Source: Moorena sp. SS36440bin_2 (GTDB lineage Bacteria; Cyanobacteriota; Cyanobacteriia; Cyanobacteriales; Coleofasciculaceae). Taken from it: DNA of 63,295 nt. The stretch is taken from contig WTKN01000048.1 of NCBI GenBank assembly GCA_011524395.1, positions 1 through 63,295 on the forward strand, read 5' to 3'. Positions 738 through 46,180 of this stretch are shown piece by piece (within the stretch, counting starts at the first letter, position 1; every line of letters starts with the position of its first letter). The position numbers and the translations under genes were made by a program. The notes under the pieces were generated by a model. The model saw nothing but the letters and a program-made list of their open reading frames with translations. It was not told the origin of the DNA and did not search any database.

Positions 738-1433
738 TTGGAAAATATCAGATGTTTAGACTTTGACAAAAAGTTTTCCACGCTGGTAGAGTTGTTAGGC
801 TATAGAGCCCTAACTCAGCCCGCTAAAATCGTTTATGCCTTCCTAGACAAAGGGGAAGAAGAAACAGATATACAAACTTATTATAACTTATTATACCAAG
901 GCTCAAGGGCGATCGCCAGCCAGTTGCAGTCTCTGGGGGTAACGGGAGAACAAGCTTTGCTAGCTAGTATATCCACCAGGTATAGACTTGATTGCTGCTT
1001 TCTTTGGGTGCTTGTACGCTGGGGTAATTGCAGTCGCCGGATATCCACCACTCCGAACCAGTCAAAATCTATCTCGGTTGTTAGCGATCGCATCAGATGC
1101 AGAGGCTCGGTTTGGCCTAACTGCCATATCTTTTATGACCGAGTTAAACAGTCGCTTTGCCCAGCATCCAGCTCTTGCTCAGTTGCATTTGCTGGCTACC
1201 AATCAATGCGTACGCGACGGCTAGACAGCAGCAGCCTAGCCTTTCTCCAGTAAACTTCCTGCTCTACCGAGACACCCAAGGGAGTAATAGTGAGTCACTG
1301 TAATCTGCTACACAATCAGCGTATGCTTAAGCAAGCCTTCGGACATAGCCAGCAAACAATTATTGTAGTAGGTTGGTTGCTGACTTTTCACGACATGGGA
1401 CTGATGGAAAATGTATTTTTATATGAAAAATGA
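738..1433 (+). pseudogene. Broken fatty acyl-AMP ligase, N-terminal third
   Basis: A TTG start at 738 lies behind a good AAGGAG. The first frame encodes FSTLVELLGYRALTQPAKIV and continues to about residue 75. The frame then shifts near 968: YPPGIDLIAAFFGCLYAGVI and NLSRLLAIASDAEARFGL are read from 970 to 1224. It returns to the first frame at DSSSLAFLQ, meets TAA where Tyr is expected, and continues as TSCSTETPKGVIVSHCNLLH and WLLTFHDMGL before TGA at 1431. The motif core (family form YTSGSTGTPKG) has lost a Tyr and two Gly. Everything after roughly residue 210 of a FAAL is missing. The final TGA overlaps the ATG of the intact FAAL (ATGA at 1430-1433), so this fragment sits exactly in front of its replacement. 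Confidence 0.85.
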
Positions 1434-3208
1434 GCAAGCAAGAATTTTCTACTCTAATTGACCTTCTCCAATATCGCTCCCTAAATCAATCTGCTCGAAA
1501 AGCTTACAGTTTCCTAAACAATGGGGAAAAAGAGGTAAATAGCCTAAGTTACAAAGAATTAGATGAAAAAGCCAGAGCAATTGCTGTAGAACTTCAAAAA
1601 CAAGTAGATAGGAATGAAAGGGCTTTACTCCTATATCCACAGGGACTAGAATTTATTGCCGCCTTATTTGGGTGTTTGTATGCAGGAGTGGTTGCCATTC
1701 CGGCACCACCACCAGACCCAATTAGACTGAAGCGGACACTACCTAGGCTTGAAGCAATTGTCAAAGATGCCCAAGCTTCCGTAATACTTACTGATGAATC
1801 AAAGTATTCCCAACTTAAAGAAGCCACTTCGGAGTTGTCTTCAGAATTCAAAAGGCTCAAATGGATAGTTAGCGATAAAATTCCTACTGCGCTATCACAA
1901 AAATGGCTAAAACCAGATATAAATAGCGATACCCTGGCTTATCTTCAATACACATCAGGCTCGACTTCCACACCAAAGGGGGTGATGCTAACCCACAAAA
2001 ATTTAATACACCACTGTAGCTACATAAAAGAAGCTTGGGGTTATACATCAGATAGTATCGCCACAACCTGGGTTCCCCATTTTCACGATTATGGACTCGT
2101 TGATGGACTAATCCAACCGCTATATTCCGGTATTCCCTGCTATGTGATGTCCCCCATCGCCTTCTATATGCGACCGATTCGCTGGCTAAAGACAATTTCA
2201 CACTACCGAGTCACCCATAGTCAAGGACCAAATTTTGCCTACGAACATTGCCTAAGAAGAACCACACCAGAACAAAGGGCGAATTTAGACCTAAGTAGTT
2301 GGCGTACAGCTAGCAACGGAGCGGAGCCAGTTCGCCAAGAAACAGTGGAAAATTTTATTGCTACTTTTGCTCCTTTTGGTTTCCGTAGGGATGCTCTTTA
2401 TCCAGCTTATGGACTAGCCGAAGCAACTTTGTTGGTTTCGACTAAAAAACATGGGGAAAAAGCCCGGGTGTTGACCTTAGCAGCAGAAGCCCTAGAAAAA
2501 AATAGAATTGTAGTAGTATCACCAGCAGAAAAAGATCAGGTAGTACGAAAAGTAGTTAGCTGTGGACCTCCTATTGGTGGGATGAAAGTGGCGATCGTTA
2601 ATCCAAACACGTTGACAAAATGTCAACCAGATGAGGTAGGAGAGATTTGGGTCTGCGATCCAAGTATGGCTGTAGGATACTGGAATAGGTTAGAAGAGAC
2701 AGAAAAGACCTTTAATGCTTACATAGGCGAAAGTGGTGAAGGGCCATTTATGCGCACAGGGGATTTAGGATTTCGGCAAGATGGGGAACTATTCATTACA
2801 GGGCGTATCAAAGACGTGATTATTATTCGTGGTCGCAACCATTATCCCCAAGATATTGAATTGACAGTGGAAAAAAGTCACCCATCACTACGATCTAGTC
2901 ATGGAGCAGCATTTGCAGTGGAGATTAAGGGAGAAGAACGTTTAATAGTGGTTCAGGAGGTGGAGCGTGGTTACCAAAAAACACTAGATATAAATGAGGT
3001 AGTGGGAAATATTAGAGAGGCAGTTACAGACGAACATGATCTACAGGTGTATTCTGTAGTATTAATCAAAGCTGGGAGCATTCCTAAAACATCAAGTGGC
3101 AAAATACAACGCTCTGCTTGCCGAGTTAAGTTTTTGGAGGGCACATTAGACCAGTTGGAATCCAGGGTAAAAGTGAAAAGTCAACGTGTCGCAGGGCTAT
3201 CCAGTTAA
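1430..3208 (+). CDS. Fatty acyl-AMP ligase (FAAL), starter activation
   Basis: Activates a free fatty acid with ATP to the acyl-adenylate and passes it to an ACP, here most likely the free ACP at 4495. The adenylation motif YTSGSTSTPKGVMLTHKNL starts near residue 174. WVPHFHDYGLVDGLIQPLYS follows, then YGLAEATLLV, RTGDLGF, and the C-terminal PKTSSGKIQR with its Lys. Length is 592 residues, as usual for FAALs. Like other FAALs it begins with the (F)STLIDLLQYRS-type opening. The ATG overlaps the TGA of the FAAL pseudogene, and no Shine-Dalgarno site is obvious, so translation may depend on coupling to the upstream remnant. With the following desaturase and ACP the gene order matches jamA-jamB-jamC of the jamaicamide pathway. 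The chain length of the substrate cannot be read from the sequence. Confidence 0.93.
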   Translation: MSKQEFSTLIDLLQYRSLNQSARKAYSFLNNGEKEVNSLSYKELDEKARAIAVELQKQVDRNERALLLYPQGLEFIAALFGCLYAGVVAIPAPPPDPIRLKRTLPRLEAIVKDAQASVILTDESKYSQLKEATSELSSEFKRLKWIVSDKIPTALSQKWLKPDINSDTLAYLQYTSGSTSTPKGVMLTHKNLIHHCSYIKEAWGYTSDSIATTWVPHFHDYGLVDGLIQPLYSGIPCYVMSPIAFYMRPIRWLKTISHYRVTHSQGPNFAYEHCLRRTTPEQRANLDLSSWRTASNGAEPVRQETVENFIATFAPFGFRRDALYPAYGLAEATLLVSTKKHGEKARVLTLAAEALEKNRIVVVSPAEKDQVVRKVVSCGPPIGGMKVAIVNPNTLTKCQPDEVGEIWVCDPSMAVGYWNRLEETEKTFNAYIGESGEGPFMRTGDLGFRQDGELFITGRIKDVIIIRGRNHYPQDIELTVEKSHPSLRSSHGAAFAVEIKGEERLIVVQEVERGYQKTLDINEVVGNIREAVTDEHDLQVYSVVLIKAGSIPKTSSGKIQRSACRVKFLEGTLDQLESRVKVKSQRVAGLSS

Positions 3209-3389
3209 ATGTAAGGAGTTTAGATTGGTTGATTTGATAAATATTGATGATATAATTTGATTAAACTTACAGGCATAACGCCAATTCGTAAACCTGGAAA
3301 ATTACGCCCTAGATACTTAGTATTAAACAGGTGAGATGGCATTAAAAAAAATAAAAAATTTAGCAAATGGTAACTAAGGAGACAGTTTG

Positions 3390-4355
3390 ATGTCAATTCC
3401 AATGGATGTGACCAAAAAATCTTTTAAACCAGCCAAAACTCAAAAGTCAAAAACCATATCAAATGATTACATTAAAGGTCTCCAGACAAAACACTTTCTG
3501 TTGTACAATGTCATTCCAACAATCGGAACACTAATAGCGATCGCTTTACTATGGTGGTACCCGATCAGTAGCGTGGAAATAGGATTACTAATAGGAATGT
3601 GGGCATTGACTATGGTGGGGATGACTGTAGGGTTGCACCGCTACTTTGCCCATCGTGCCTTTAAAACTAGCGAAACAATGAGAGTCATTTTAGCAATTCT
3701 AGGCTGTATGGGTGCTCAAGGGCCTGTAGTTTCCTGGGTGGCAGTGCATCGTCGTCACCATGAGTACAGCGATCTACCAGGAGATCCCCATTCTCCAAAT
3801 CTAGAAGAATTACAGGAAGGAATATGGGGAACCTTACGAGGTCTTTGGCACGCCCATGTGGGTTGGCTAACAAACCACGAGTATCCTAACCCGATGTATT
3901 ATGCGCCAGAATTGATGCGAGACAAAACCATTAGCAAGATTAATCGCAATTATGTAGTATGGATAGTTTTGGGTCTGCTAATGCCAACTATTTTAGGAGG
4001 AATTATTCATGGGTCTTGGTACGGGGCTGTGGAAGGTCTTCTGTGGGGTGGATTTGTACGGATGTTTGTGGTAGATAACTCCATTTTAAGTATCAATTCA
4101 TTTTCTCATGCTTTTGGAACTCATCCTTTCGATAGTAAAGACCAGAGTCGGAACAATATTTGGGTGGCTATTCCTACTTTTGGAGAATCCTGGCAGAATA
4201 ATCACCATACTTTTGAAAATTCGGCAGCGATTGGTTTAAAATGGTGGCAAATAGATTTAGGTTACTGCCTAATCTGGGTATTGGAAAAATTAGGTTTAGT
4301 TTGGGATGTAAAGTTGCCAAGCGCCAAAATGATCGAAGCTAAGAAGTTAGCTTAA
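3390..4355 (+). CDS. Membrane fatty acyl desaturase, JamB-like position
   Basis: Integral membrane di-iron desaturase. It carries the His boxes HRYFAH (HxxxxH), HRRHH (HxxHH) and a third box NNHHTFEN. Hydrophobic stretches around residues 34-75 and 190-230 fit the usual paired membrane helices. The family is the acyl-CoA/acyl-lipid delta-9 type. Between a FAAL and a free ACP, the known precedents (JamB and relatives) act on the ACP-bound acyl chain to install a terminal alkene or alkyne. That function is an inference here, since ordinary mid-chain desaturation would look the same by motif. I chose ATG 3390 because AAGGAG at 3376-3381 lies eight bases upstream. A TTG one codon earlier (3387) is also open. 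Confidence 0.9.
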   Translation: MSIPMDVTKKSFKPAKTQKSKTISNDYIKGLQTKHFLLYNVIPTIGTLIAIALLWWYPISSVEIGLLIGMWALTMVGMTVGLHRYFAHRAFKTSETMRVILAILGCMGAQGPVVSWVAVHRRHHEYSDLPGDPHSPNLEELQEGIWGTLRGLWHAHVGWLTNHEYPNPMYYAPELMRDKTISKINRNYVVWIVLGLLMPTILGGIIHGSWYGAVEGLLWGGFVRMFVVDNSILSINSFSHAFGTHPFDSKDQSRNNIWVAIPTFGESWQNNHHTFENSAAIGLKWWQIDLGYCLIWVLEKLGLVWDVKLPSAKMIEAKKLA

Positions 4356-4494
4356 TTGTTAAAAAAAAATCGTAAACCTGAACAAGATTAGGACGTGTAA
4401 CTATCCTCAATTGGTCATAGCTGATGATAGTTACACGTATCAAGTAGTCAATAACTTCAGTAAAATCTAGTAACTACCCATCAATCAATAAATT

Positions 4495-4797
4495 ATGGAA
4501 AACTTAACAGTAGAAACCCAAAACCTGACTAATGTAGATAATGGAAGTATAGAGGATAAGAATGGACCCACAGTAGATGAGGTTCAGGAGTGGTTGATTT
4601 CTTATCTGTCACAACTATTAGATCTAGAAATTGAAGAAATATCGACAAGCACTTCTTTTAATCGTTACGGTCTGGATTCTTCAGCCTCAATATCTTTAAC
4701 AAGCGATTTCGGGGATTGGATCTCAAAAGAAATAGACCCAACAATTCTGTATAGTTACCCCACAATAGAAGCTATGGCAGAGCACTTTGGTGGATAA
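4495..4797 (+). CDS. Free-standing acyl carrier protein for the starter unit
   Basis: A 100-residue discrete ACP. The phosphopantetheine site is [19 protein letters not shown], with the modified Ser in GLDS near residue 62. This GLDSSA form is typical of ACPs paired with FAALs (JamC-like) and differs from the GMDSL form of the modular PKS ACPs downstream. The N-terminal 25 residues are polar and probably disordered. Its place after the FAAL and desaturase suggests it holds the fatty acyl chain during loading and desaturation and then delivers it to the KS of PKS1. Confidence 0.93.
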
Positions 4798-4809
4798 GAT
4801 TTATTGAAA

Positions 4810-4964
4810 GTAATCTCAAATCCGCTTAATTCGGTATAAAAAAAAATATCTGCAGCTATTGCCAAATCTTTCTAAATTCTCTTCCATCCTGACTACTGAA
4901 TTGGTAAATACTGAATCATAATTAACTATCTAATTTATACCGATGCTAGCGGATTTGAGATTAC
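4810..4964. repeat. MITE-like element with terminal inverted repeats
   Basis: The 17-base arm GTAATCTCAAATCCGCT (4810-4826) is matched by its exact reverse complement at 4948-4964. A second short arm pair, CGGTATA (4832-4838) and TATACCG (4936-4942), lies just inside. About 100 AT-rich bases lie between. There is no reading frame, so this resembles a small non-autonomous element or a long imperfect hairpin between the ACP and the flavoprotein. The rest of the 4798-5225 gap is AT-rich with several A-runs and no other feature I can support. Confidence 0.6.
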
Positions 4965-5225
4965 TAGTTAGTTTTGGGTAGAGAAGATTTGCGGAATATC
5001 TGAATATTATCCCTACCTAAAATTAGCTAGCACAAAAAACTGTAGTTTATCACGGAAACCGAATAGTTTCTTTTGCAAGTATGGCTTATAAAAAAAATGG
5101 ATGGATAAAAAAAAAAGAAAACGGTATTACTCAGTAATTACATCTAAGTAAAAGCTATCAAACAGTTTGATGGTGCAGCTATTTTGGAGTTGTAAAACTT
5201 TTGGTTTGTAAGATTTGATAAAAGT

Positions 5226-7214
5226 GTGATAAAAAATATTATGCTCGAAGTATGTATCATTGGTTTTGGATTTAGTGCGGTGCCATTGATTAGGGAATTA
5301 CAGCGCACGGGAACAGAGTTTAGAATCATTTCCGATGAAAGCAATAGTGTATGGGATGCTCTGAGTAAAAGTAACCGTTTGGATTTCGACCTAGTATCCA
5401 GTTATTTAACTAGCTTTTATTCATTTGATTTGGTAAAGGATTTTGTAGAAGATTATTATCCTACATCAAAGCAATTTTATGAAATGCACCAGAGATGGCG
5501 AAAGGTATATGAGAATGAAATAATAAGGGATCGGGTGACGAGAATAGATAATTTCCAAGACCATAGTGTAATTTTTACAAAATCTGGCCAAACACTGAAT
5601 GCCAAACACGTGATCTGCTCCACAGGGTTTAGTCGTGCTATACACACCCACATTAATGATATTGATTACAGTGTATCGAACAAAACCTTTGTGTTTGATA
5701 CGATGGGAGACTCTGCTAATCTAATCATAGCAAAATTGATCCCCAATAACAACAAAATTATCATTAGAACGAACGGGTTTAATGCTCGAGATAAAGTCAT
5801 TCCAGGAGCAGGAGCAATATATACCTTAGATCAGCTAGAAGGTCATAATTTTAGGTATATGTCCCATGAGCATTATGCCTCTGTAATCTACGGTCTGCCT
5901 TTAGGTTCAAACAAACCAATTCTAATGGGAGATCAATTTCCTGTGACTGTGCGTGATGATAGTTATATCACAAGTAAGTCACGCCCTGCAAGCGGTACAA
6001 TTGCGATCAAATACTGGCCTATCGATCAATATGCAGATAAATTTGGTAATAACCTTGAAGAGTCTATTTCTCAAGGTTACTTATTGAATGATATCGCCAT
6101 GTGGTTGCATACAGGTAAAGCTATTGTTGTGCCCAAAGATACCGCAATTGATATTGAAAAGAAAACAATCACTTACGCAGGTATTGAAAGAGCTTTCCAT
6201 CAGTATATAAAAGGGGATCCGGAACAACCGAGACTGCCAAAAATTATGATTGATGGAAATACTCCCTATGACTATCAATACAGAGATAATTTTATGGGTG
6301 TAATACCCCATACACTGAAAAATGTATACTTTATTGGATATACCCGTCCTTATACAGGAGGTCTGGCAAATATAATTGAAATGCAAGGGTTGTTCGTTCA
6401 TAAAATGATAACTCAATCAGAATTTCATCAGAAAATACATCATAACTTGGACGAGCGTATTGTCGCTTACAATAATCATTATTATGGGACAACTAAACCT
6501 CGCAGCGCAGATCACTTAGTATATTTTGGATTTTATACAGATGATCTAGCAAGGTTAATCGGCATTGATTATAAACCCAGCGAAATTAACTCAATCAAAG
6601 ATATGGTGTTTTATTATGCTTTTCCTAATAACGCATTTAAATATCGTCTGAAAGGAGAATATGCGGTTGAGGGGGTTGAAGACCTGATCAAAAAAATTAA
6701 TGAAAAATATTATGATTTTATTGGTGTATTTGCCTATTTATGGGTAACCAGCACGATGGATTCAGTTGATATTAATGAAGAAATAGAACAATTTATTCGT
6801 CAGTATTTCAACGACATGAGGCATAAAGAACCATATACAAAATTCATGGAAAATTATATTAAAGTCTATCGTCGGTTTAAAAATACAATAGTTGATGAGA
6901 CGGAGGATTATGAGTGGAATTTGATGGTAAAAAAGGCTAGTGAGACGAGAGATAGAGTTGTGCAAGATTTCAAAGAATCAGGTGATAATCAACTTGAAAA
7001 AGACTTGAATACTTTTATCTTTAATGAGATCGAAGTAATACAATCTTTAATGAGTTATAAGATTGAATCAGTTAAGGATGGCCAATTAAAAATCGTTCTA
7101 GAAAGCGTTTTAGACAAAAACGAGATGCTCCCAAAAATTGAAGCCCAAGATTGGCAATCTTTATTATCTTTGACTAAGCCCAAAGAGTATGAACTGCTGT
7201 ATTTGAAGCCCTAG
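5226..7214 (+). CDS. FMO-like FAD/NAD(P)H-dependent oxygenase
   Basis: The N-terminus has an FAD-binding Rossmann fold (CIIGFGFSAVPLIREL, a GxGxSA pattern near residues 12-18). A second nucleotide-binding motif, GDSANLIIAKL, lies near residue 161, preceded by CSTGFSRA near residue 138. This layout is that of flavin monooxygenases, N-hydroxylases and Baeyer-Villiger-type enzymes; I cannot tell which. The last 250 residues, rich in Lys, Tyr and Asp, match nothing I recognise, and at 662 residues the protein is longer than simple FMOs. Placed between the starter ACP and PKS1, it may oxidise the starter chain or a polyketide intermediate. The gene is more AT-rich than the PKS genes, which may mean a separate origin. 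The GTG at 5226 and the ATG at 5241 are both possible starts. Confidence 0.72.
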   Translation: MIKNIMLEVCIIGFGFSAVPLIRELQRTGTEFRIISDESNSVWDALSKSNRLDFDLVSSYLTSFYSFDLVKDFVEDYYPTSKQFYEMHQRWRKVYENEIIRDRVTRIDNFQDHSVIFTKSGQTLNAKHVICSTGFSRAIHTHINDIDYSVSNKTFVFDTMGDSANLIIAKLIPNNNKIIIRTNGFNARDKVIPGAGAIYTLDQLEGHNFRYMSHEHYASVIYGLPLGSNKPILMGDQFPVTVRDDSYITSKSRPASGTIAIKYWPIDQYADKFGNNLEESISQGYLLNDIAMWLHTGKAIVVPKDTAIDIEKKTITYAGIERAFHQYIKGDPEQPRLPKIMIDGNTPYDYQYRDNFMGVIPHTLKNVYFIGYTRPYTGGLANIIEMQGLFVHKMITQSEFHQKIHHNLDERIVAYNNHYYGTTKPRSADHLVYFGFYTDDLARLIGIDYKPSEINSIKDMVFYYAFPNNAFKYRLKGEYAVEGVEDLIKKINEKYYDFIGVFAYLWVTSTMDSVDINEEIEQFIRQYFNDMRHKEPYTKFMENYIKVYRRFKNTIVDETEDYEWNLMVKKASETRDRVVQDFKESGDNQLEKDLNTFIFNEIEVIQSLMSYKIESVKDGQLKIVLESVLDKNEMLPKIEAQDWQSLLSLTKPKEYELLYLKP

Positions 7215-7270
7215 AGTGTTTTGTAAGTAGTTAAACAATACACATCGCTATCTCCACAGAAAAGGCTTGT

Positions 7271-10200
7271 GTGCTGGTAGCAGAAACTGAACAAATGATG
7301 AATAAAGAACCAATAGCAATAATAGGAATGGGATGTCGTTTCCCAGGAGCTAAAAATCCAGAAGCATTCTGGAAATTACTGTGTAATGGTATAGACGCAA
7401 TTACCGAAGTGCCAGCTTCTCGGTGGGATAACGAATTATTTTATGACCCCGACATCTCCAAGCCAGGTAAAACGAACAGTCGGTGGGGTGGCTTTCTAGA
7501 GCAAGTAGATCGATTTGACCCGAATTTTTTTGGTATTTCTCCCCGAGAAACCCAAACCATGGACCCCCAACAACGGCTATTGCTGGAACTAGCTTGGGAA
7601 GCCTTAGAAGACGCAGGACAACCACCAGCAGAATTGGCAGGTACACCCACAGGGGTATTCATGGGGGTATCAAGCTTCGACTACTATGAACTCATCGCCC
7701 AAAATCCCAGTAACTTTAGTACCTATACAGGCACAGGTAACTTAAATTGTATTAACGCCAATCGCCTCTCATACTTTTTTGACTTCCATGGACCGAGCAT
7801 GGCCATAGATACGGCCTGTTCCTCATCCCTGGTGGCAGTACACTTAGCTTGCCAAAGCCTGTGGAGTGGAGAATCTACCCTAGCAATGGTAGGAGGCGTA
7901 CATATTGTGACATCGCCGTGGATGTCGGTAGCCTATGCCCAAGGAGGATTTATGGCTGCTGACGGTAGGTGTAAAACCTTTGATGCCAAAGCTGATGGTT
8001 ATGTCCGCAGTGAGGGGGCAGGGTTAGTGATACTCAAACCACTATCTCAAGCCCTGGCTAATAAAGACCGCATCTATGCCTTAGTCAAGGGAAGCGCAGT
8101 TAACCAAGATGGATACAGCAACGGGCTAACAGCCCCCAATCCCTTAGCACAGGAAGCGGTGTTACGGGCAGCATACAAAAATGCAGGTATTTCACCAGGA
8201 GATGTGCAGTATATAGAAGCCCACGGAACCGGAACAAAACTGGGAGACCCGATGGAGATGAAAGCCTTAGGAGCAGTGCTATCTCAAGATCGTGCTCCTG
8301 GTGACTACTGTGCAGTGGGTTCAGCAAAAACCAATATTGGGCATTTAGAAGCACCAGCAGGTATTGCCGGATTAATTAAAGTAGCACTGTCACTTTACTA
8401 TCGCCAGATTCCACCAAGTCTAAATTTCACAGAGCCGAATCCTTATATCAAGTTTGACGAAATACCATTGCGAGTACAGGAAACTCTGACACCTTGGCCA
8501 GAAAAATCAATGCCAGCGTACGCAGGTGTGAGTTCCTTTGGTTTTGGTGGCACTAACTCCCATGTGGTGTTGGCAGAAGTAGAGAACAAGGAACTATTAA
8601 TAGGTAACACGCAAGAAAAACCCAAAGAACGTCCAGTGCATCTGCTAACGCTATCAGCGAAAACGGAAGAAGCTCTGGAGCAGTTAGTGACCGGTTATCA
8701 GAACCACTTGAAAAAACATCCAGAATTGGCGATAGGAGATGTTTGTTACACAGCCAATGTGGGGCGATCGCACTTTCAATATCGCCTCGCTGTTGTCACC
8801 AAATCCACAGAGCAGTTACAGGAACAATTAAAGGGTGCGGCAGAAGCAGAGGAAACACCAGGAGTTATCAAGGGTAAAAAGATTGGTCGCAAGCGTCCTA
8901 AAGTAGCATTCCTCTTCACCGGTCAAGGTTCCCAGTATGTAAATATGGGACGGCAATTGTATGAAAGTCAACCTACTTTTCGTCACGCTTTAGATCTATG
9001 TGACCAAATCCTACGTCCGTATTTGGAACATTCGCTTTTAGAAGTGCTTTATCCTCAACAAGCACAAAACTCAAATTATTCTCTACTAGACCAAACTGCT
9101 TATACCCAACCGGCTCTATTTGCTTTAGAATATGCCCTCGCCAAGTTATGGGAATCTTGGGGAATCAAACCCAAGGTGGTGATGGGTCATAGTGTGGGAG
9201 AATATGTGGCAGCTTGTATTGCAGGAGTTTTCAGTCTTGAAGACGGACTGAAGTTAATTGCCATGCGTGGCAGGTTAATGCAGCAGTTGCCTAGTGGTGG
9301 CAAGATGGTATCGTTGTTGGCGTCGGAAAAGCGGGTCAAAAAGGCGATCGCGGACTATAGTTCCCAAGAGGGGTTGGACAAGCCCGCTGTAAGCATTGCT
9401 GCCATCAATGGACCGGAAAGTATCGTGATTTCTGGTGAAAGTGAAGCGATCGCAGCTATTGGCAGTAAGTTAGAAGCTCTGGGAGTAAAAACCAAACCGC
9501 TACAGGTATCTCATGCTTTCCACTCCCCTCTGATGGAACCAATGTTGGCAGAATTTAAAGCAGTAGCCAATCAAATTACCTACCATCAACCCAAAATACC
9601 AGTAATATCCAATGTTACTGGTGAAAAAGTAGGTGCGGAAATTGCTACTGCTGAATATTGGGTTCGTCATGTGCGACAACCAGTGAGATTTGCCCAGAGT
9701 ATGAAAACTCTAAATGAGCAAGGGTATGAATTGTTTCTAGAAATTGGACCCAAACCAATATTACTGGGAATGGGAAGGCAATGTTTGCCAGAGGATGTGG
9801 GAGTATGGTTGCCGTCATTGCGTCCGGGAGTGGAACAATGGCAACAGATGTTGGAAAGTTTGGGACAGTTATATGTGAAAGGTTTGAAGGTAGATTGGTC
9901 AGGATTTGAGCAAGATTATTCTTGTCAGAAGGTAGCATTGCCAACATATCCCTTCCAGCGAGAAAGGTATTGGTTAGAAACTAATAATGGTCTTCCGAAA
10001 AAACAGTATTTGTCAACAAGCCAAGCTATCCACCCCCTATTAGGTCAAAAACTCAATTGTGCGAGTGAACAACAAATTTTTCAGTCAGTATTAGGGGAAG
10101 TATCCCCAGCCTACCTCAGCCACCATAGAGTATTTGATAAAGCATTATTTCCCACGACTGCCTATTTAGAAATGGCTACAGCAGCCGGAAACTACCAATT

Positions 10201-32031: not shown

Positions 32032-32032
32032 A

Positions 32033-35000: not shown

Positions 35001-37825
35001 TTAAAGGCGGTACCGTTCACGAGTATTACAATGCCGTGGCAACCTTGGGTCAAGTACAAGCTGGTAGTCAAGCAGATGGGTTAGCAGAATCACCATATTT
35101 AACCTTTGGTTTGTTTCCAGAAAAAGTCCCTGATTTTTCCTGGATTAAATGTTTGACTGAACCTAATCAAGAAAAAAATCGTCAGATGATTTTTGATTCT
35201 CAAAAAGAGTTGAGACAACTATTATTTGCCCAAGTCGATTTTTCAGCTTGTCAAAAAGTTCTAGACTTTGGTTGTGGATATGCTTCAGATTTGCTTCAGC
35301 TTGCTCAAAAATACGAACACCTGCAATTGAATGGATACACTATTTCTAGCGAACAAGCCAAATTTGGTAGCACAAGAGTCCGCGAAAGTCAACTGCAAGA
35401 GCGAGTAAAAATTTATAACCGAGATAGTGCAAAAGATGAGTTTCCTAACCATTACGATCTGGCGTTTGGGTTTGAAGTTGCTCACCACATTTTGGATAAA
35501 CAGGCACTGTTTACCAATATCGGCAATCATTTAAATCAACAAGGATATCTGGTGCTGGCAGATTTCATCTCCAATAGCGATATAGCGATCGACCATGAAG
35601 AAACATCTTCCTACTTTATTACAAAATCTGAGTGGGTGGAACTTTTATCTCAGCACCATCTCCAGTTATTAGCAGCAATAGATGTGAGTCCGGAAATCTC
35701 TAACTTTTTGTACGACCCAGACTTTGAAGGACGCTTGGAGCAGTTATATCAAAGGAATCAAGATGAAAATGTACGTTCTGGATTCAAATCTTACTATCAA
35801 TTAGGAAAAGTTTTGAGTAAAGGAATAGCAAGTTATGTATTGCTGACAGCTCAAAAGCAAGAACAGTTATCAAGTGAAGAAGTTGCTGAGTGGAATCAAC
35901 AAATCCTCGCTCAACTGACATCCTACTCGGAAGTAACACCCCAACGTTGGTTGTATGAACTGGAATGGCCAGCTCAAAAGGCAAAAAGCAAAGGGCAAAA
36001 GGTAAAAGAAAACTGGTTGTTGTTTGCAGAAGATGGTGCTGTGGCATCAGGGTTAAGGGAAAAATTGGGAGATGGATGTGTCATAGTTTCTCCTAGTAAT
36101 AGTTATCAGCAGATCGATGGGAAACACTACGAAATTAATCCTACTGCTCCTGAAGACTTTAAACGTCTGTTGAATGAAACTAAGGAGATACAAGGAATAG
36201 TTCATCTGTGGAGCATGGCGACAAATAGCGATCGCCTAGAAACAGCAATAGAATATGGTTGTGCTAGTTTGTTACATCTGGTGCAAGCTTTGGCGGAAAC
36301 AAAACCACAGCAGATGCCGCATTTGTGGGTAGTTACTCAAGGCGCAATGGGTGTGGTTACTGACGAAGCTGTACAAGTCCAACAATCGCCAGTTTGGGGA
36401 TTAGGTCGAGTCATTACCCAGGAACATCCAGAAATGCAATGTCGGTTACTCGACTTGGAAGCAAGTACGAAAGCAGAAGACGTAGCAGAGTTGTTATACC
36501 AAGAACTCTTGTCTCCAGAAGAAGAAAACCAGATAGCTTATCGGCAGGGAGAACGTCGTGTAGCGCGACTGGTAAGACGAGAACAGCAAACAACTACAGA
36601 AGACAAATCAGAAATTAATATTGTTGCAGAAGGCAGTTACCTAATTACTGGTGGTTTGGGCGCTCTGGGATTACAACTAGCTCAGTGGTTAGTAGATAAG
36701 GGCGCTAAATATTTAGTACTGACCGGACGTCGTGAACCATCAGAGAAAGCGAAACAAGCTATTGCTCAACTTGAACAACTGGGAACACAAGTATCAGTCC
36801 AGTTAGGAGATGTTGCTGTCGAGCAAGATGTAGCAAGTATAATTGAGCAGGTCAAGACATCCTTACCAGCATTGCATGGTGTGATTCATGCAGCAGGTGT
36901 TTTGGATGATGGGGTGTTGCAACAGATGAACTGGGAGCGGTTTACAAAAGTAATGGCCCCCAAAGTTCAAGGTGCCTGGAATCTCCATCAGTTTACTCAA
37001 GATTTGCCATTAGACTTCTTTGTGTGTTTCTCCTCCGCAGCATCTTTCTTGGGTTCCACTGGTCAAGGTAACTATGCAGCAGCTAACGCTTTTATGGATG
37101 GTTTGGTTTATCATCGCCGAGCATTAGGTTTACCTGGGTTGAGTGTGAACTGGGCCGCTTGGGGAGAAGGAGGCATGGCAGCACGTTTAGCAAGTCAATT
37201 CCAAAGTCGGATTCGCTCTCTAGGTATGAGTAGTATTCCACCAGAACAAGGATTAGATATGTTGAGCCAGTTATTGGCAGAGTCAGCAACTCAAGTGGGA
37301 GTCATACCTATTAACTGGTCTCAGTTTGTGGCTCAACTGCCTGCGGGAATGATCATGCCAGTGTTGTCAGAGTTTATGAGTTCCCAGTCTGTCGCAGTAG
37401 AAACCAAGAGTAACGAATTTTTAGCGGAACTTCAAAAGGCAAAAGCAAGCGATCGCCCACAGATAATGACAAATTATCTCCAAGGTGTGGTAGGTAAGTT
37501 ACTTGGGTTCCCAGAATCTCAACTGCCAGATACACAGTTAGGCTTTTTTGATATGGGAATGGATTCTTTGTTGTCTTTGGAACTCCGGAATTTGCTACAA
37601 AACAGCTTAGGTTGTTCGGTGTCTTCTACGGTTTTGTTTGAGTATACAAATATTGAAGCTCTAGCTGAGTATTTAGCTACCGAAGTTTTGGCACCAGAGT
37701 TAGAGAAAACTGTTGATACTTCAGACAACGATAAGCCTGAAACACCAGCTATCCCTCAGGAAAAAGTTACAGATGCGATCGCCGAAAAATTCCAACAGAT
37801 ACAAAATCTACTTAACAACAACTAA
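32033..37825 (+). CDS. PKS5: KS-AT-oMT-KR-ACP
   Basis: Fifth module. I prefer ATG 32033, just after the PKS4 TAA with GAGGA upstream; ATG 32018, overlapping PKS4, is also open. KS Cys210; AT Ser671 with HGFHSPLM. A domain of about 300 residues from 990 follows, opening with [10 protein letters not shown] and carrying a SAM motif [15 protein letters not shown] near 1076. It is unlike the cMTs of PKS1/2/6 and resembles the O-methyltransferases embedded in curacin- and stigmatellin-type PKSs. A structural KR half and an intact KR (TGGLGALG near 1537, Tyr1681 in [16 protein letters not shown]) follow, then the ACP with Ser1845. There is no DH. The expected unit is a beta-methoxy group made by ketoreduction then O-methylation. 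A repeat-like Lys-rich [11 protein letters not shown] lies before the structural KR. Confidence 0.93.
33421..33470 (+). repeat. Repeat-derived insert in the PKS5 KS-AT linker
   Basis: AGCAACA/GGCAACA units followed by GTGAAGATT, encoding [11 protein letters not shown] at the linker position used in PKS2 and PKS3. Confidence 0.6.
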
Positions 37826-38055: not shown

Positions 38056-41000
38056 ATGGGACAACAGGCGCTTTCATCTGAACAATTATTTCAGCTTTTA
38101 GAACAAGTTCACAGTAAGCTTGAAACAGTCGATAGAGAAAAAACAGAACCCATTGCCATTATTGGAGTCGGTTGCAGATTTCCTGGTAATGCCAATGACC
38201 CTGATTCATTCTGGCATCTATTACACGAGGGTATTGATGCAGTTACAGAAATACCATCAGACCGCTGGGATATTGAGAGTTACTACGACCCAGACCCAGA
38301 AGCTCCCTTAGCAGCATATACCCGACAGGGGAGTTTCATTCAACAAGTTGACCAGTTTGACCCTCAGTTTTTTGGTATTTCTCCCAGAGAAGTAGTAAGC
38401 TTAGACCCCCAACAAAGGCTACTATTAGAAGTTACCTGGGAAGCACTGGAAAACGCTGGAATTGCACCAAATCATCTGAAAAATAGTAAAACAGGGGTAT
38501 ATGTTGGGATTTGCACCGATGACTATACATCAATCCAGCTCGCCACCGGAACGGCAAAAATAGTTACCCAAATGCTTGACCAATCTTCCAGGAATAAGGA
38601 GAATAGCGTTTCTGCCAATGCCTACTCTAGTCTAGGTAGCGCCCGCAGTATGGCAGTCGGTCGTATTTCCCATCTACTGGGTTTACAAGGCCCAAATATT
38701 CAGTTAGATACAGCCTGTTCGTCGTCTCTAGTCGCGACGCATCTGGCGTGTCAAAGTCTGCGCTTAAAAGAATGTAACTTAGCTTTAGTAGGTGGGGTAA
38801 ATTTGATTCTCTCACCAGGGAATACAGTTGCTCGTTGTAAAATTAAAGCCCTAGCTCCTGATGGTCGCTGCAAAACTTTTGACGCATCCGCAGATGGTTA
38901 TGGCCAAGGAGAAGGATGCGGAGTTGTTGTTCTCAAGCGTCTTTCTGATGCTATAGCTGATGGAGATACAGTTTTAGCAATGATTCGAGGTTCAGCTATT
39001 AACCATGACGGGCCAAGCAGTGGTCTGACTGTTCCTAATAAAAAAGCGCAGAAAGAAGTCATACAACAAGCTCTGCAAAATGCCAGAGTGGAACCCCATC
39101 AGGTGAGCTATGTGGAAGCACATGGAACGGGAACCACTCTGGGCGACCCCATAGAATTAGAAGCTTTAGCAGCCATTTATGGTAAAAATCGTTCTCAAAA
39201 TCAACCGCTGATAGTGGGTTCGGTGAAAACTAATTTCGGGCATTTAGAAGCAGCAGCAGGAGTTTCATCTTTAATCAAAGTAGCACTGGCACTTCACCAT
39301 CAGGAAATACCGCCTCATTTACACTTTAATAAACCTAATCTCTATATTCCCTGGAATCAAATCCCTGTAACTATTCCCACTTCTGGCATACCCTGGCAGG
39401 ATGGCGAAAAACCCCGAAGGGCAGGAGTTAGTTCTTTTGGCATGAGCGGTAGCAATGTTCATGTTGTTTTGGAGTCTGCTCCTATCCAAGTCAAAAGTGA
39501 AGAAAGTTTAGAACGTCCGGTTCATTTATTAACGTTGTCAGCAAAAACTCAACCTGCTCTGGAAGAGTTGGCGAAACGTTATTGTGAGTATTTAGAAAAT
39601 CATGTAGGGACGTTCCATGGAAGATCATTAGATGATATTTGTTATACAGCAAATGTGGGGCGATCTCATTTTAAACATCGTCTTGCTGTATTAGCAACTT
39701 CGGTGAATGAACTAAGAGAAAAATTAGGAACTTTTAATACTGAAAATGAACTTGTAGGATTGTTCTCTAGTCAACTTCCGAACACTACCAGTAAGCCTAA
39801 AATTGCTTTTTTATTCACTGGTCAAGGTTCCCAATATGTAAGGATGGGATGGGAGTTGTACCAAACTCAACCCACATTTCGGAGTGCTTTGGAGGCATGC
39901 AACAAAATTCTGCAACCTTACCTAGAAAAACCTCTGTTAGACGTTCTCTATTCTGATTTAGAGAATAGGGAGCAGGGTAAGGGTGAATGGCCATTCGCCC
40001 CTACGGAGAAAAGGGAAGAAACTTCTTTACTAGACCAAACAGCATACACTCAACCAGCTCTGTTTGCCCTAGAATATGCTCTAGTGCAGTTATGGAAGTC
40101 TTGGGGAGTAGAGCCAAATGTTGTCATGGGTCATAGTGTTGGAGAATATGTGGCAGCAACTGTAGCGGGAGTTTTCAGTCTCGAAGATGGTCTGAAGCTG
40201 ATCGCTACTAGGGGAAAATTAATGCAACAGTTACCTGATGCTGGAGAAATGGTGTCAATATTGGCATCTGAATCTCAGGTAAGGTTAGCGATCGCTCCCT
40301 ATAACTCAGAAGTAGCTATTGCTGCTATTAATGGTCCGGAAAGTATTGTGATTTCTGGAGCAAGTGGAGCTATTGGAGAAATTTGTAGTAAACTGGAATC
40401 TCACAAAGTTAAAACCAAACGCCTACAAGTATCCCATGCTTTCCACTCTCCATTAATGGAACCCATGCTGGCAGAGTTTGAGGTTGTAGCTAGACAAATT
40501 ACTTATAATCAACCCCAAATTCCATTAATATCAAATATTTCTGGAAAATTAGCTGATGAAAGCATCGCTACAGCAAAATACTGGGTGAATCATATCAGAC
40601 AACCAGTACGGTTTGTTCAGAGTATGGAAACTTTGGATCGGCAAGGATATAAAGTTTTCCTGGAAATTGGATCAAAACCAGTATTGTTGGGAATGGGGCG
40701 TCAATGTTTGCCTGAAAATCAAGGTATGTGGTTGCCTTCTTTGCCTCCGGGTAAAATCCCCCTCCTGTCCCCCTTAGAAAAGGGTAAGCCAGAGGAACCT
40801 GCGCTTTTGAGAGGTGAGTGGGAACAAATACTTTCTAGTTTGGCACAGTTGTATTTGCAGGGAGTTAAAGTTGACTGGTCAGGGTTTGACCAAGATTATG
40901 TTCGTTGTAAGGTGATGTTGCCAACTTATCCGTTCCAACGTGAAAGGTATTGGATAGAAACAAGCAATATTTTAACGACAAAACAATATTTTTCAACAGG

Positions 41001-44000
41001 TAAAAATCTACATCCACTATTAGGAAAAAAACTAAATTGTGCAGGTGAACAACAAATTTTTACATCACTCATAGGAGAAAAAGCCCCAACTTACCTCAGC
41101 CACCACAGAGTATTTAATCAAGCACTATTTCCTACAACAGCTTACTTAGAAATAGCGCTAGCAGCAGGAAATTACCGATTAAAAAACCCCAAGTTAGTAG
41201 TAGAAGAACTAATCATCCAACGGGAATTGATTTTGCCAGCAGAGGAATTAATCTCACTCCAAACTATACTCATCCCATCAGACAACCAAAGCCACCAATT
41301 ACAAATATTTACTCAACTCGAACAACACAACCAAGAAGAACAAAAGTGGATACTTCATGCCACGGTAAACATCCGACCCAACCTAACAGATACATCTCAA
41401 ACCAGAGTAGACCTGGAAAAATACCAAGCTTGGTGTAGTCAACCGATAGAAGTCAAACAACATTATCAACAATTCCAAAAAATTGGCATAGACTACGGCA
41501 GCAGTTTCCAGGGAATTGAAAAAATGTGGTCTGGAGCTAACCAAGCACTTGCTGAGATTAAATTACCTGAAGAATTAATAGCAGAAACAATTGATTATCA
41601 ATTCCATCCTGCATTATTAGATGCAGCATTACAGGTAATTACTCATGCACTGCCACAAATAGAGAGCGACAAAACTTATCTACCAGTAGGGGTCGAGCAA
41701 TTTCAAGTATATGGTCGTCCAGGACTTTCCCTTTGGGCGATCGCATCAGTCACTCCAGCAAAGCTAGAAAGTCAAGAAAATTTAACCACTGAAGTGACCC
41801 TAGTGACTCCAGAGGGAGAAATCATTGCCACAGTTAAAGGCTTTAAAGTAAAACTTGCTACTCAACAAACTCTACTAGGAACAGAAGACGAATCAATCAC
41901 TAATTGGCTCTATGAAGTAGAATGGAGAAAAAAAGGTCTTTTGGGGAGGCTGCTATCCCCTGATTTCCTGCTCAAACCAGTAGAAGTGGAGCAAAAACTG
42001 ACTCCCAGTGTGACAGAATTAGTAACTCAAGTAGATAATGCTCGCACCTCAGAAATCGGAACTGCCTTAGAAGAATTAAGCATAGATTATATAGTGCAAG
42101 CATTGCAGTCAATGGGTTGGTCATACAAGCCGACAGAGAGCTTTGAATTTGATGCAGCAGCCCAACATTTAGGCATAGTTCCTATCCATAGACGACTGTT
42201 TCAACGTCTGCTACAAATCTTAGCAGAAGCAGGAATACTCCAGTCCAATCAACAGCAGTGGCAGGTGAAACAAACCTTAGAAAAAGTCAACCCCACTAAA
42301 AAAAATCAGAGTTTACAAAATCAATATCCAGATGAAGCAGCATTGACAATACTAGACCGTTGTGCATCTCAACTAAGTGGGGTACTACGAGGAGCAATAG
42401 ACCCGCTGGAACTGGTGTTTCCTCAAGGAGAATTAACCGCTTCAACCCAACTGTATCAAGACTCACCTGTAGCGCAAGTGATGAATACGATACTGCAAAA
42501 AGCCATCACGAAAGCCATGGAGAAATTACCACCTAGCCAAGGAATACGGTTGTTGGAAATTGGAGCGGGAACAGGAGGGACGACAAGTTATATTCTGCCC
42601 CATCTCAATCCCAACCAAACAAAATATATCTTCACCGATATTGGAGCATTATTTACAAGTAAAGCCCAAGAGAAATTCCAGGATTATCGATTCTTGGGCT
42701 ATCAAGCCTTAGATATAGAGGTAGACCCGACAAACCAAGGATTTGAGTCTCATCAATATGATGTAATTATTGCTGCTAATGTGCTTCATGCAACCACCGA
42801 TATGAAACAGACATTATCCCATGTACGGCAACTGTTGGCACCAGGGGGAATGTTGGTCTTGTATGAAGCAACAACTCGGACTCGGTGGGGGGACTTGACA
42901 TTTGGATTGTTAGAGGGATGGTGGAAATTCACTGATTATGATATACGACCAGACTATCCTCTACTGAGTCGTGATAAGTGGAAGCAATTACTTAGTGAAA
43001 CAGGTTTTACTCAAGTAGTTACTTTACCAGAAATTGAGAGCATGCCAGAAGTTTTGTCTCACCAGGCAGTGATTGTTGCACAAGCTGAGCAAACAGTGTC
43101 AGAGAAGACATCATCAGAACAGAAGCACTGGTTGATATTAGCAGATACTCAAGGAGTTGCTCAAGAGTTGGCAACTCAACTACGCTCAATGGGAGAAACC
43201 TGTACTTTGGTATTTGCTGGAGAGCAATATCAACAAACAACACCAACAGAATTTACGATTGACTATCACAACCTTGCAGAATTTGAACAACTGATAGCTA
43301 CTATTTCAGCTAATTTACCTTCAATATATGGGGTAGTGCAATGTTGGACAATGGACGCCAAAGCTGCGGAACACATCAGTTCCCAGGAATTAAAAAATCT
43401 ATCGATACAGGGGTGTGGTGCTACATTATCTTTGGTTCAGGCATTGGTTAAAGGGGGATTATCAAAACCGCCTCGGTTATGGCTAGTAACCTGTGGAGCG
43501 CAACCGATACAGGGAACTCATCCAGACGTCTCAGGATTAGCCCAATCTTCGGTCTGGGGAATGGGGAAGGTGATTGGTTTGGAACATCCAGAACTCAATT
43601 GTGTGCGAATTGATTTAGACTTGAACCAGACTTTAGAGGCTAAAGGGTTGGCACTTTTCCAGGAAGTTTGGTCAGAGGATACAGAAGACCAAGTAGTATG
43701 GCAAGGGGATGATCGTTATGTAGCTCGGTTAATACGCTCTCATCCTACAACCGAAGTTTCCCTACACTTCCGTGAGGATGCCACGTACCTAATTACAGGA
43801 AGTATCGATATTTTTGAATTGGTTGGACGTTGGATGGTATCGAAGGGAGCCAAGCATTTAGTATTGATGGGAAATTATTCACCGGATGATGGTGCAATTG
43901 AGAAATTGACTGAGTTAGAACTTGCTGGAGCTGAAGTAGTAGTAGAACTGGCTGATGTGTCAGAAGTTGAATCTATAGCTAGGGTGTTGAATAATATTAA

Positions 44001-45618
44001 CCACTCAAGATTCCCATTGGCAGGAGTGATTCATGCAGCCGGAATCTTGTCCGATGGAATCCTACAACACCAGACTTGGTCAAGCTTTGAGAAAGTGATG
44101 ACTCCAAAAGTTCAAGGTGCTTGGCATTTGCATGAGTTAACTCAAAATCAACCATTAGACTTTTTTGTGTTGTTTTCTTCAGTAGCATCCCTTTTTGGTT
44201 CACCGAGTCAGGGAAACCATTCAGCTGCTAATGCTGTTCTTGATAGTTTAGCTCATTATCGTCGAGGTATTGGGTTGCCTGGATTGAGTATTCACTGGGG
44301 TGATTTGACTCAAGTGGGAGAAGCCGTTGAACATGGTGCAGAGGTGAGGGAACAGAAGCAAGCTCTAGGTTCCCTCACTCCAACTCAGATGTTGGAGTCT
44401 CTAGGGCTACTGATGAGTAGCGAGGTGACAGAAGTCGGGGTAGTGCCAATTAATTGGTCAGCTTGGCAAGAGAGAGTGGCACAATGGTTGTTCTTGAAGG
44501 ATTGGGAGAAAACAATCAAGATTGCGTCTCCACAGCAATCCACTAAAAATGTTGAACTAATCCAAAAATTAGCAACAGTTTCTACTCAAGAATGCAAACA
44601 AATTCTAATTGAATATATCCAACAGCAGGTTGGTAAAATACTTCTAATCAATGCTTCAAACCTTATAGATCCACAGCAATCTATTTTAGAATTGGGTTTT
44701 GATTCCTTAACTGGTATTGAACTCAGAAGTAAACTTGAAAGTCAACTAGAAGTGACTATATCTGCTGGCAAAATCCAAGAAGGACCTAGCATAATTGAAT
44801 TAGCAGAAGATCTGACTAAACAACTGACTCAAGACAGTTATTCTAATTCTAAAGATGAAAGTAAAGAATTAGTTGACAAAACAAACCTTTGGATTGCATA
44901 TCATCAACCAAAACCCAATGCTCGTCTGCGTCTATTCTGCTTTCACCCATGGGGTTCAAGTGCCTCAATGTTCCAAGGATGGTCTGATCAGCTCCTAACA
45001 GATATAGAAGTATTGCCAATTCAACTTCCAGGCAGGCAAAGACGCCTACAGGAAAAACCTTTTACTGAGTTTGTTCCTCTCATCCAGGTTTTAGGAGAAA
45101 TTCTCAGTCCTTACTTAGATAGACCATTTGCTTTTTTCGGCCATAGCATGGGAGCATTGATTGCTTTTGAACTTGCCCATCTTCTTGAAGAAGACTATAA
45201 TCTCAAACCACTACACCTTTTCTTAAGTGCTGCCCTACCACCATCAGATATTTATTTTTCAAAGGAGTTTGAATCTTTCTCACAAGAACAAAAGCTGAAT
45301 TATTTTATGAATATTTCAGAAATCCCAAAAGATATTTATGACGATCCATCACTTTTACAAGAATTGATTAATGTATTTAAAGCAGACCTGCAGCTATTAC
45401 AAAGCTATAGTTACGTGGAAAAACTTGCTCTGAGTTGCCCAATCTCTAGCTTTGGTGGCATCAACGATTCTTTGACAAGTGAAAAACAACTTTCAGAATG
45501 GTCGAAGTACACTTCGAGTACATTTGAAGTGCAAATGTTTCCTGGTAAACATATGTTCTTGAAGGATAGCAAAAAACTGCTTTTGGACACAATTGCTCAG
45601 ATCCTATCTATAGGATAA
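38056..45618 (+). CDS. PKS6: KS-AT-DH-cMT-KR(degenerate)-ACP-TE, terminal module
   Basis: Sixth module and chain release. N-terminal coiled-coil docking segment ([17 protein letters not shown]); KS Cys221; AT Ser694 with [10 protein letters not shown] His1017 and Asp1189; cMT motif [11 protein letters not shown] near 1500. The KR has lost its NADPH motif ([12 protein letters not shown] near 1912) and has His2055 for the catalytic Tyr, so it should be inactive and the DH idle. ACP Ser2217 in GFDSLTG. The last 240 residues form an alpha/beta-hydrolase thioesterase with GHSMGA (Ser2364), an Asp in GGIND and His in [20 protein letters not shown] and LPGRQRRL make it look like a type II (GrsT/RifR) thioesterase fused to the end. 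Expected last unit: alpha-methyl beta-keto acid or a lactone from it. Repeat-derived peptides lie in the AT ([10 protein letters not shown]) and after it ([16 protein letters not shown]). Confidence 0.95.
39961..40020 (+). repeat. Palindromic interspersed repeat inside the PKS6 AT
   Basis: Contains GGGTGAATGGCCATTCGCCC, an almost perfect palindrome of a type I know as dispersed in cyanobacterial genomes. It is read in frame as [11 protein letters not shown], at a position where the other five AT domains have no such segment. Confidence 0.7.
40749..40823 (+). repeat. Second repeat-derived insert in PKS6 (end of AT)
   Basis: CCCCCTTAGAAAAGGG-type sequence encoding [21 protein letters not shown] between LPSLPPG and EWEQILSSL. 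In the other PKS proteins these two motifs are only a few residues apart. Confidence 0.65.
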
Positions 45619-45628
45619 GATAGGATCT
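45599..45628 (+). promoter_or_regulatory. Hairpin across the PKS6 stop codon
   Basis: AGATCCTATCT (45599-45609) pairs perfectly with AGATAGGATCT (45618-45628) around an 8-base loop that contains most of the TAA. There is no following T-run, so it may slow or stabilise the transcript rather than end it; the lipocalin-like gene starts 67 bases later. Confidence 0.45.
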
Positions 45629-45694
45629 GATTAAGTATTCAATTAGACGTAGATAATAGGCGTATTATAAAAAAAAAGTAATTAAGGAACAAAA

Positions 45695-46180
45695 ATGACA
45701 CATAGTATAGTATCAAAAGATGCTTTTGTCGGAACATGGAAACTTGTCGAAATGAAATCTGTAGATAAGGAACAAAAAATAAGTTATCCCTATGGCAAAA
45801 ATCCCGTAGGGCAGATTATATATACTCAGGAGGGATATATGTCAGCCTCAATCATGAGGAGTAATCGCTTGAATCTTGGCTTATCTATGGAAGAAATCCA
45901 GAATGGTAGGAAGGTATCCAAACTAGAGTTAATAACAAACATACTGAAGTATATAAAAGCACCTTTTATATATTCTCAGGCAGCGATGAACTATATTTCT
46001 TATAGTGGTAAATATGAAATTAGAGATAATAAAGTTATTCACGATGTTGAAGTTAGTTTAATTCCAGATATGATTGGTATAAACTTAGAACGGAATTTTG
46101 AGCTTTCAGAAGATATACTTGTACTAAGTAAATTATTTGCGGGGAATACCTTTTACCTCACTTGGCAACGTGTTTCCTAG
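45695..46180 (+). CDS. Lipocalin-like small protein, last gene of the cluster
   Basis: A 161-residue protein that begins FVGTWKLVEMKSVDKEQ and continues YPYGKNPVGQIIYTQEGYMS. This is the signature of the lipocalin-like family (Lipocalin_5 type), a small beta-barrel. Later strands include YISYSGKYEIRDNKVIHDVE and a final LTWQRV. There is no signal peptide. AAGGAA precedes the ATG. Family members sit in several bacterial and fungal polyketide clusters, and some small barrel proteins shape or cyclise polyketides, so a role in product folding, cyclisation or binding is plausible but unproven. It is on the same strand as the PKS genes, 76 bases after PKS6. Confidence 0.75.
   Translation: MTHSIVSKDAFVGTWKLVEMKSVDKEQKISYPYGKNPVGQIIYTQEGYMSASIMRSNRLNLGLSMEEIQNGRKVSKLELITNILKYIKAPFIYSQAAMNYISYSGKYEIRDNKVIHDVEVSLIPDMIGINLERNFELSEDILVLSKLFAGNTFYLTWQRVS

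Follow-up and report, generated by a model that had tools for sequence, protein, structure and literature searches.

A putative stand-alone polyketide assembly line of the jamaicamide/vatiamide lineage without vinyl-chloride cassette and nonribosomal peptide synthetase modules in Moorena sp. SS36440bin_2

Gene content and relatives of the cluster

The marine cyanobacterium Moorena sp. SS36440bin_2 carries a cluster of eleven genes on contig WTKN01000048.1 (assembly GCA_011524395.1) that encodes a modular type I polyketide synthase (PKS) together with starter genes of the type known from jamaicamide biosynthesis. We analyzed positions 1 to 63,295 of this contig, hereafter called the window. A fatty acyl-AMP ligase (FAAL), a membrane desaturase and a free acyl carrier protein (ACP) adjoin one another as in jamABC-type cassettes and are followed by a halogenase, by six single-module PKS open reading frames (ORFs) spanning positions 7271–45618 and by a lipocalin-like ORF as the last gene (Table 1). 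All genes are located on one strand with intergenic gaps of −14 to 428 bases. As a decayed FAAL copy lies upstream and mnmH forms the right flank, the cluster is not apparently cut by the contig.

In all six modules, the ketosynthase (KS) contains the active-site Cys and both His motifs and is accompanied by a malonyl-type acyltransferase (AT) of the module's own, featuring GHSVG and either HAFH or HGFH, so that the synthase is a cis-AT modular type I PKS. The third KS motif, missed by a pattern search in modules 5 and 6, is present there as KTNFGH, and both KS domains are intact. C-Methyltransferase (cMT) domains are present in modules 1, 2 and 6, module 5 contains a separate methyltransferase (MT), and a thioesterase (TE) forms the C-terminus of module 6. 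Pfam resolves module 1 into KS-AT-DH-cMT-ER-KR-ACP (DH, dehydratase; ER, enoylreductase; KR, ketoreductase), and the domain orders of the other modules are given in Table 1. Neither a condensation domain nor an AMP-binding domain beyond that of the FAAL was detected by Pfam in the 22 window ORFs scanned, for which reason a nonribosomal peptide synthetase (NRPS) or hybrid cluster was rejected. A preliminary description of the locus had listed FAAL, desaturase, free ACP, six single-module PKS proteins with three C-methylating steps and one O-methylating step, a terminal TE and no NRPS module, all of which we recover, the named genes being intact ORFs with strong Pfam matches. Its ten genes become eleven with the lipocalin-like ORF, and the halogenase had gone unmentioned.

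We assign a probability of roughly 60 % to the reading that the assembly line is complete, stands alone and is a shortened relative of those for jamaicamide and vatiamide, devoid of vinyl-chloride cassette and NRPS, with a product that would follow from the steps proposed below. Known counterparts exist for all of its parts, while a JamABCD-type starter, an NRPS-free line and a carrier-dead module were not noticed together in the open-licence literature searched, and no matching pure polyketide product was noticed in the literature searched either.

A jamaicamide/vatiamide-type cluster in a 9.9 Mb genome of the same genus (G398, contig C3) features the four starter genes in the same order and with 89–95 % identity, and its DNA is 90.6 % identical to that of modules 1 and 2 over 8.9 kb. 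It differs from the window by its vinyl-chloride cassette and by two stretches with weak FAAL hits (22–24 %), which we take as NRPS adenylation domains. The jamaicamide cluster itself (jam, 17 ORFs, 57 kb) has the jamABC alkyne cassette, the JamD halogenase and a long leader upstream of jamA, whereas its vinyl chloride and mixed PKS/NRPS nature set it apart from the window (excerpts of PMC2799420, PMC4356899 and PMC12645471); this likeness is one to jam as described rather than to the sequence of the jam record. In Okeania SIO2C9 (loci L002, L031 and L032), FAAL, desaturase, ACP and halogenase with 78–86 % identity are followed by a KS of the same type (90 %) and, unlike in the window, by weak FAAL hits (28–32 %) further on, again taken as NRPS adenylation domains. 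Based on veraguamides A and K being reported in Okeania samples (excerpt of PMC7825088), this is perhaps the start of the veraguamide cluster. A genome from another genus of the family (G391, contig C423) encodes a KS-AT-ACP protein with dead ACP followed by modules resembling modules 5 (84 %) and 6 (76 %) in the same order. It has fewer modules, its contig ends inside module 6, and no FAAL, desaturase or halogenase was found on that contig. Lipid-primed PKS lines with methoxy groups also occur in related genera, as in pathways of the curacin and malyngamide type.

Table 1. Features of the cluster with positions in the window, strand and basis of assignment.
Feature	Position	Strand	Basis
Leader common to window and G398, holds decayed FAAL copy	526..1429	+	DNA identity block with G398 from 526
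FAAL, JamA-type	1430..3208	+	Pfam AMP-binding, FAAL-type NCBIfam models
Membrane desaturase/acetylenase, JamB-type, TTG start	3387..4355	+	PF00487
Free ACP, JamC-type, GLDS intact	4495..4797	+	PF00550, alignment
Putative AetF/JamD-type single-component flavin-dependent halogenase	5226..7214	+	PDB AetF match
Module 1, KS JamE-like, remainder JamJ-like	7271..14938	+	Pfam, mosaic scan
AT switch zone of module 1, JamE-like/JamJ-like	9300..9900	+	Informative-site scan
Module 2, KS-AT-DH-cMT-KR-ACP	14950..21846	+	Pfam, alignments
Module 3, KS-AT-DH-ER-KR-ACP, without MT	21899..28534	+	Pfam, alignment
Module 4, KS-AT-ACP, Tyr at phosphopantetheine Ser (GLNYSMM)	28534..32031	+	Pfam, alignments; G391 counterpart same
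Module 5, KS-AT-oMT-KR-ACP (oMT, O-methyltransferase)	32018..37825	+	Pfam, StiE/StiD match, KR Tyr and LDD motif
Module 6, KS-AT-DH-cMT-KR(apparently defective)-ACP-TE	38056..45618	+	Pfam, KR loop alignment
Lipocalin-like protein	45695..46180	+	PF13924

Starter genes and halogenase

Compared with G398, the FAAL is 93 %, the desaturase 95 %, the ACP 95 % and the halogenase 89 % (search) or 92 % (global alignment) identical, and the FAAL reaches 86 % to its Okeania SIO2C9 counterpart. The preliminary description was right about a JamABC-like start with its FAAL-ACP-desaturase set but understated it, considering these four genes and a module 1 stemming from the same cluster type. The desaturase translation contains the boxes HRYFAH, HRRHH and NNHH and matches acyl-CoA desaturase structures with an E value of 3e-28. 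JamA is described to load 5-hexenoic acid, which JamB turns into an alkyne (excerpt of PMC4356899). The FAAL substrate probably is a short fatty acid, namely 5-hexenoic acid, and judging from the 95 % identity to the G398 homologue the desaturase product is likely an alkyne rather than an alkene only.

The leader of about 900 bases upstream of the FAAL is common to the window and G398. It contains the decayed FAAL copy at 738–1253, which matches FAAL residues 4–228 but is frameshifted and carries a stop (tblastn 31 % over 232 aa, E 4e-24). The strongest jamaicamide promoter is located 832–902 bases upstream of jamA (excerpt of PMC2799420), and such a decayed copy may explain the unusually long leader described for this gene.

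The ORF between ACP and module 1 encodes 662 aa without a Pfam match at an E value of 0.001, but a PDB search aligned crystal structures of AetF to residues 6–661 with an E value of 1.5e-255. Its GFGFSA motif corresponds to the GxGxxA of the AetF/JamD family, and its Lys262 and Glu205 occupy the positions of AetF Lys258 and Glu200, which are named as catalytic (excerpt of PMC13317684); both residues are kept in all seven aligned halogenase sequences, that of the window included. We therefore assign the ORF to the AetF/JamD-type single-component flavin halogenases. A CylC-type dimetal halogenase was ruled out by the AetF structure match. AetF itself is a 5,7-tryptophan dibrominase, whereas the pathway in the window is predicted to have no aromatic unit. 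The halogenase gene also follows a jamC-type gene in G398, and jamD directly follows jamC in the jam cluster. With a JamD-type halogenase gene directly behind the ACP gene, the starter would most likely be a bromoalkyne, which sharpens the alkyne half of the terminal alkene or alkyne proposed previously. The enzyme would probably brominate the terminal alkyne, a step for which JamD is named as the mediator (excerpt of PMC12645471).

Action on a different group, the use of chloride or iodide, or halogenation of only part of the product seems unlikely to us in view of the 92 % identity to the halogenase of a jam-type cluster, its same gene position and the lack of a predicted aromatic unit in the pathway. 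Partial halogenation does have a parallel in jamaicamide B, the non-brominated form. Furthermore, AetF accepts many arenes in addition to alkenes and alkynes (excerpt of PMC13317684) and uses bromide as well as iodide, with the iodinated jamaicamide F being known (excerpt of PMC12210266).

The halogenase is rare, as only two of 386 sampled genomes of the phylum gave a match, namely the own genome and a 23 % match to a flavin monooxygenase (FMO)-like protein. Within the family, four of 20 genomes, the own one included, carry it, two of them only as fragments. Scanning contigs revealed six loci in Okeania, Symploca (a fragment), Adonisia, two acidobacterial metagenome-assembled genomes (MAGs), one of them from the Vicinamibacterales, and one gammaproteobacterial MAG. 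In the two acidobacterial MAGs, Adonisia turfae and the gammaproteobacterial MAG (L003, L004, L005 and L006), the AetF/JamD-type halogenases are full or near-full, with 40–60 % identity. Fragments with stops or a missing middle part in two genomes of one genus, including Symploca SIO1C2 (L007:10001–10414, L011 and L035), look like decayed JamD-type genes.

The mosaic module 1 and the vinyl-chloride cassette

In G398, the genes behind the starter set include KS-AT-PhyH-ACPx3, a KS, an HMG-CoA synthase, an enoyl-CoA hydratase (ECH) and ECH-ER-KS-AT-DH-cMT-ER-KR-ACP. Module 1 of the window is a chimera of the first KS-AT and a later methylating module of such a G398-type cluster. In 20 of the 22 bins of 100 bp between window positions 7100 and 9300, the sequence tracks the first, JamE-like KS-AT of G398 with 84–99 % identity, the remaining two bins showing 73 % and 78 %; the informative sites of the first bin favor this parent by 47 to 1. 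The JamJ-like G398 module is tracked from 9900 up to 10400, where the scan ended, with 93–100 % identity and 60 versus 1 informative sites at 10000–10099. The zone between 9300 and 9900 is mixed, with 54–81 % to one parent and 45–88 % to the other. A single switch inside the AT would skip the vinyl-chloride cassette, and one recombination would thereby separate the two cluster types.

The components of this cassette, that is a PhyH-type halogenase domain, tandem ACPs, HMG-CoA synthase and ECH, were not found in the window ORFs scanned. An HMG-CoA-synthase-type gene had no match at an E value of 0.001 in the genome of the window (99.87 % complete), and a strong match was obtained in four of seven genomes searched, G398 among them. 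As Okeania SIO2C9 and G391 feature the same KS type directly ahead of DH-cMT, we do not claim deletion of the cassette in the lineage of the window as settled, its gain in the other lineage being possible. We also noticed an RRXRR and HNH domain protein (L082:12688–14007, minus strand), which we take to be IscB-like, inserted in the G398 cluster between its HMG-CoA-synthase and ECH genes.

An exact repeat of 1,531 bp (11052–12582 and 18848–20378) links modules 1 and 2 across their cMT regions, which encode domains 99.7 % identical in protein, and points to either recent gene conversion or a risk of misassembly. In this repetitive genome of 441 contigs, the repeat would favor an assembly artefact as the origin of the module 1 chimera or the module order. 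We regard such an artefact as very improbable. Neither parent is closely matched in the AT switch zone (45–88 % per 100 bp), which thus holds no exact repeat joining them, the HMG-CoA-synthase-type cassette gene has no match in the genome, and on either side of the repeat module 1 matches one and the same G398 module (DH 93–96 %, KR 94 %).

Module 4, chain release and the predicted product

The carrier motif of module 4 reads GLNYSMM, while the other five modules feature G(M/L/F)DSL. Its G391 counterpart, likewise a KS-AT-ACP protein, shows GLDYAMM and has the AT motif GHSVG changed to GSNVG. Searching 17 genomes with the tail of module 4 gave a single close match beyond the window, that of G391 with 59 % over residues 6–220; by score it is followed by ordinary carrier regions with at most 42 % identity, and a linker of about 55 residues within the tail recurs elsewhere at up to 55 %. 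An intact KS along with an incapable carrier or AT, as expected for a non-extending module, is thus found here with Tyr in place of Ser, and the G391 protein loses both AT and ACP. As the phosphopantetheine Ser is replaced by Tyr in the same manner in the counterpart from another genus, module 4 probably does not extend the chain, in line with the skipped module and the ten backbone carbons that the earlier reading had allowed for.

Module 4 retains the catalytic motifs of KS and AT, and its ACP appears to be under some constraint, with a ratio of nonsynonymous to synonymous rates (dN/dS) of about 0.1 (dS saturated) and 0.28 for the whole tail, which argues for some function of the protein. 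The N- and C-terminal ends fit docking between modules 3 and 4 and between modules 4 and 5, as judged by eye. These three features would also suit a module 4 that extends, the Ser of NYS or another carrier holding the extender, so that the chain would be extended six times, by twelve backbone carbons, and would carry an additional ketone, as mainly predicted in the preliminary description; the calculated [M+H]+ would then be 413.169 for the ketone and 457.158 for the acid. This appears unlikely, given that both clusters with this protein have Tyr for Ser and that the neighboring Ser is an Ala in G391, whose AT Ser is lost as well. We rather propose that module 4 keeps its KS and docking ends but adds no unit, most likely serving as an adaptor that links modules 3 and 5.

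The MT of module 5 matches the O-methyltransferase structures of StiE (E 1e-75) and StiD (E 4e-70), and its KR shows the Tyr and an LDD motif, so a β-methoxy group is predicted for this module; the three α-methyl steps and the O-methyl step named previously are hence retained. In the KR of module 6, TGGMGGLG is replaced by TGSI-DIFE, by which the Gly-rich loop is gone with a one-residue deletion. The KR Tyr is exchanged for His in modules 1, 2 and 6; as the same His is found in three KRs of related modules, two from G398 and one from G391, we did not accept KR loss from this exchange alone and counted only the loss of the Gly-rich loop in module 6. With the NADPH loop lost, the unit added by module 6 would likely remain a ketone. 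A working KR, leading to a 2-methyl-2-enoic acid, would be in keeping with the DH domain and most KR residues being present, and with a dN/dS of 0.18–0.23 that resembles that of module 2 (0.16–0.20; 0.10–0.19 for module 1) and indicates no clear relaxation. We consider it improbable because of the lost loop, and the lipocalin-like neighbor comes after KR-less TE modules in three other genomes. Of the β-keto acid or lactone end suggested in the preliminary description, the β-keto variant is thus favored. Release as a macrolactone is disfavored, as the predicted chain should keep no free hydroxyl.

The context of the lipocalin-like gene was examined in 12 of 16 other matching genomes. Type I PKS domains are found near it in six of them, and no PKS domain was found near it in the other six. 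An ACP-TE lies just upstream on the same strand in four, as part of a whole, by Pfam KR-less module in three (G320, G392 and G395) and as an ACP-TE fragment in G278. In nine of the twelve, the gene consequently has no complete KR-less TE module ahead of it; the G213 copy comes after a module that has a KR and ends in a reductase, and the one in G101 neighbors a PKS encoded on the opposite strand. By Pfam, the gene is followed by Lipase_3 proteins in three loci, with an FMO-like gene intervening in G320, but not in the window. The G320 locus (L107:2336–19928) comprises KS-AT-DH-KR-ACP, KS-AT-ACP-TE with a TE 64 % identical to that of the window, the lipocalin-like gene, two FMO-like genes and Lipase_3. 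Small clusters of FAAL, a weak AurF-like protein, KS-AT-cMT-ACP-TE, lipocalin-like protein and Lipase_3 were seen in two genera (L085 and L086); the AurF-like protein is below the Pfam cut-off, and a CylC-type halogenase is a guess. A PDB search with the lipocalin-like protein gave nothing beyond chance (best E 0.1), and no function for the TE and lipocalin-like pair turned up in the literature searched. We predict that the protein acts on the released β-keto acid. Downstream of the cluster, the minus strand encodes a large sensor protein with Cache, HAMP, histidine kinase, receiver and adenylate/guanylate cyclase domains (47968–51471) and a TnpB-type protein (OrfB_IS605, Cas12f1-like TNB domain; 56443–57726).

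In the proposed pathway, the FAAL would load a C6 acid onto the free ACP, the desaturase would form the terminal alkyne and the JamD-type halogenase would add a halogen, most likely bromine. Module 1 would then supply a fully reduced α-methyl unit, module 2 an α-methyl alkene and module 3 a fully reduced C2 unit, before the chain passes module 4 and receives a β-methoxy unit from module 5 and an α-methyl unit left as a ketone from module 6, where the TE would release it. Five extensions of 6-bromo-5-hexynoyl-ACP would give 16-bromo-5-methoxy-2,8,10-trimethyl-3-oxohexadec-8-en-15-ynoic acid (C20H31BrO4, 414.1406, [M+H]+ 415.148; BrC#CCCCCC(C)C=C(C)CCC(OC)CC(=O)C(C)C(=O)O), which likely would decarboxylate, perhaps helped by the lipocalin-like protein, to an ethyl ketone C19H31BrO2 (370.1507, [M+H]+ 371.158 for 79Br). 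This structure as a whole is tentative and we would not expect it to hold in every detail. A somewhat more speculative proposal is that a conserved KS adaptor without usable carrier site and release to an ethyl ketone by TE and lipocalin-like protein together lead to an amino-acid-free bromoalkyne ketone.

Several of the observations speak against our main interpretation. The product chemistry is predicted from the genes, module 4 has kept its KS and AT motifs and a constrained ACP, the KR of module 6 shows no clear relaxation and its sole other change, Tyr to His, is common to related modules, and most of the lipocalin-like genes examined stand in another context, including those of G213, G101 and G278 and the six without PKS domains nearby. 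The exact repeat also leaves room for an assembly error, as an extra module may have collapsed there.

The AT junction in module 1 would represent a natural site for the in-frame loss or gain of a cassette of about 12 kb, which would be of use for PKS engineering, and module 4 with its G391 counterpart offers a way to test whether KS-AT proteins with a dead carrier persist as docking adaptors. If the more speculative proposal holds true, chains would be released by a new route and the JamABCD starter would be put to a new use. If our reading of the cluster is right, a pure polyketide tipped with a bromoalkyne would be available from a compact natural source, and the cluster would serve as a model case for how modules are lost or gained.

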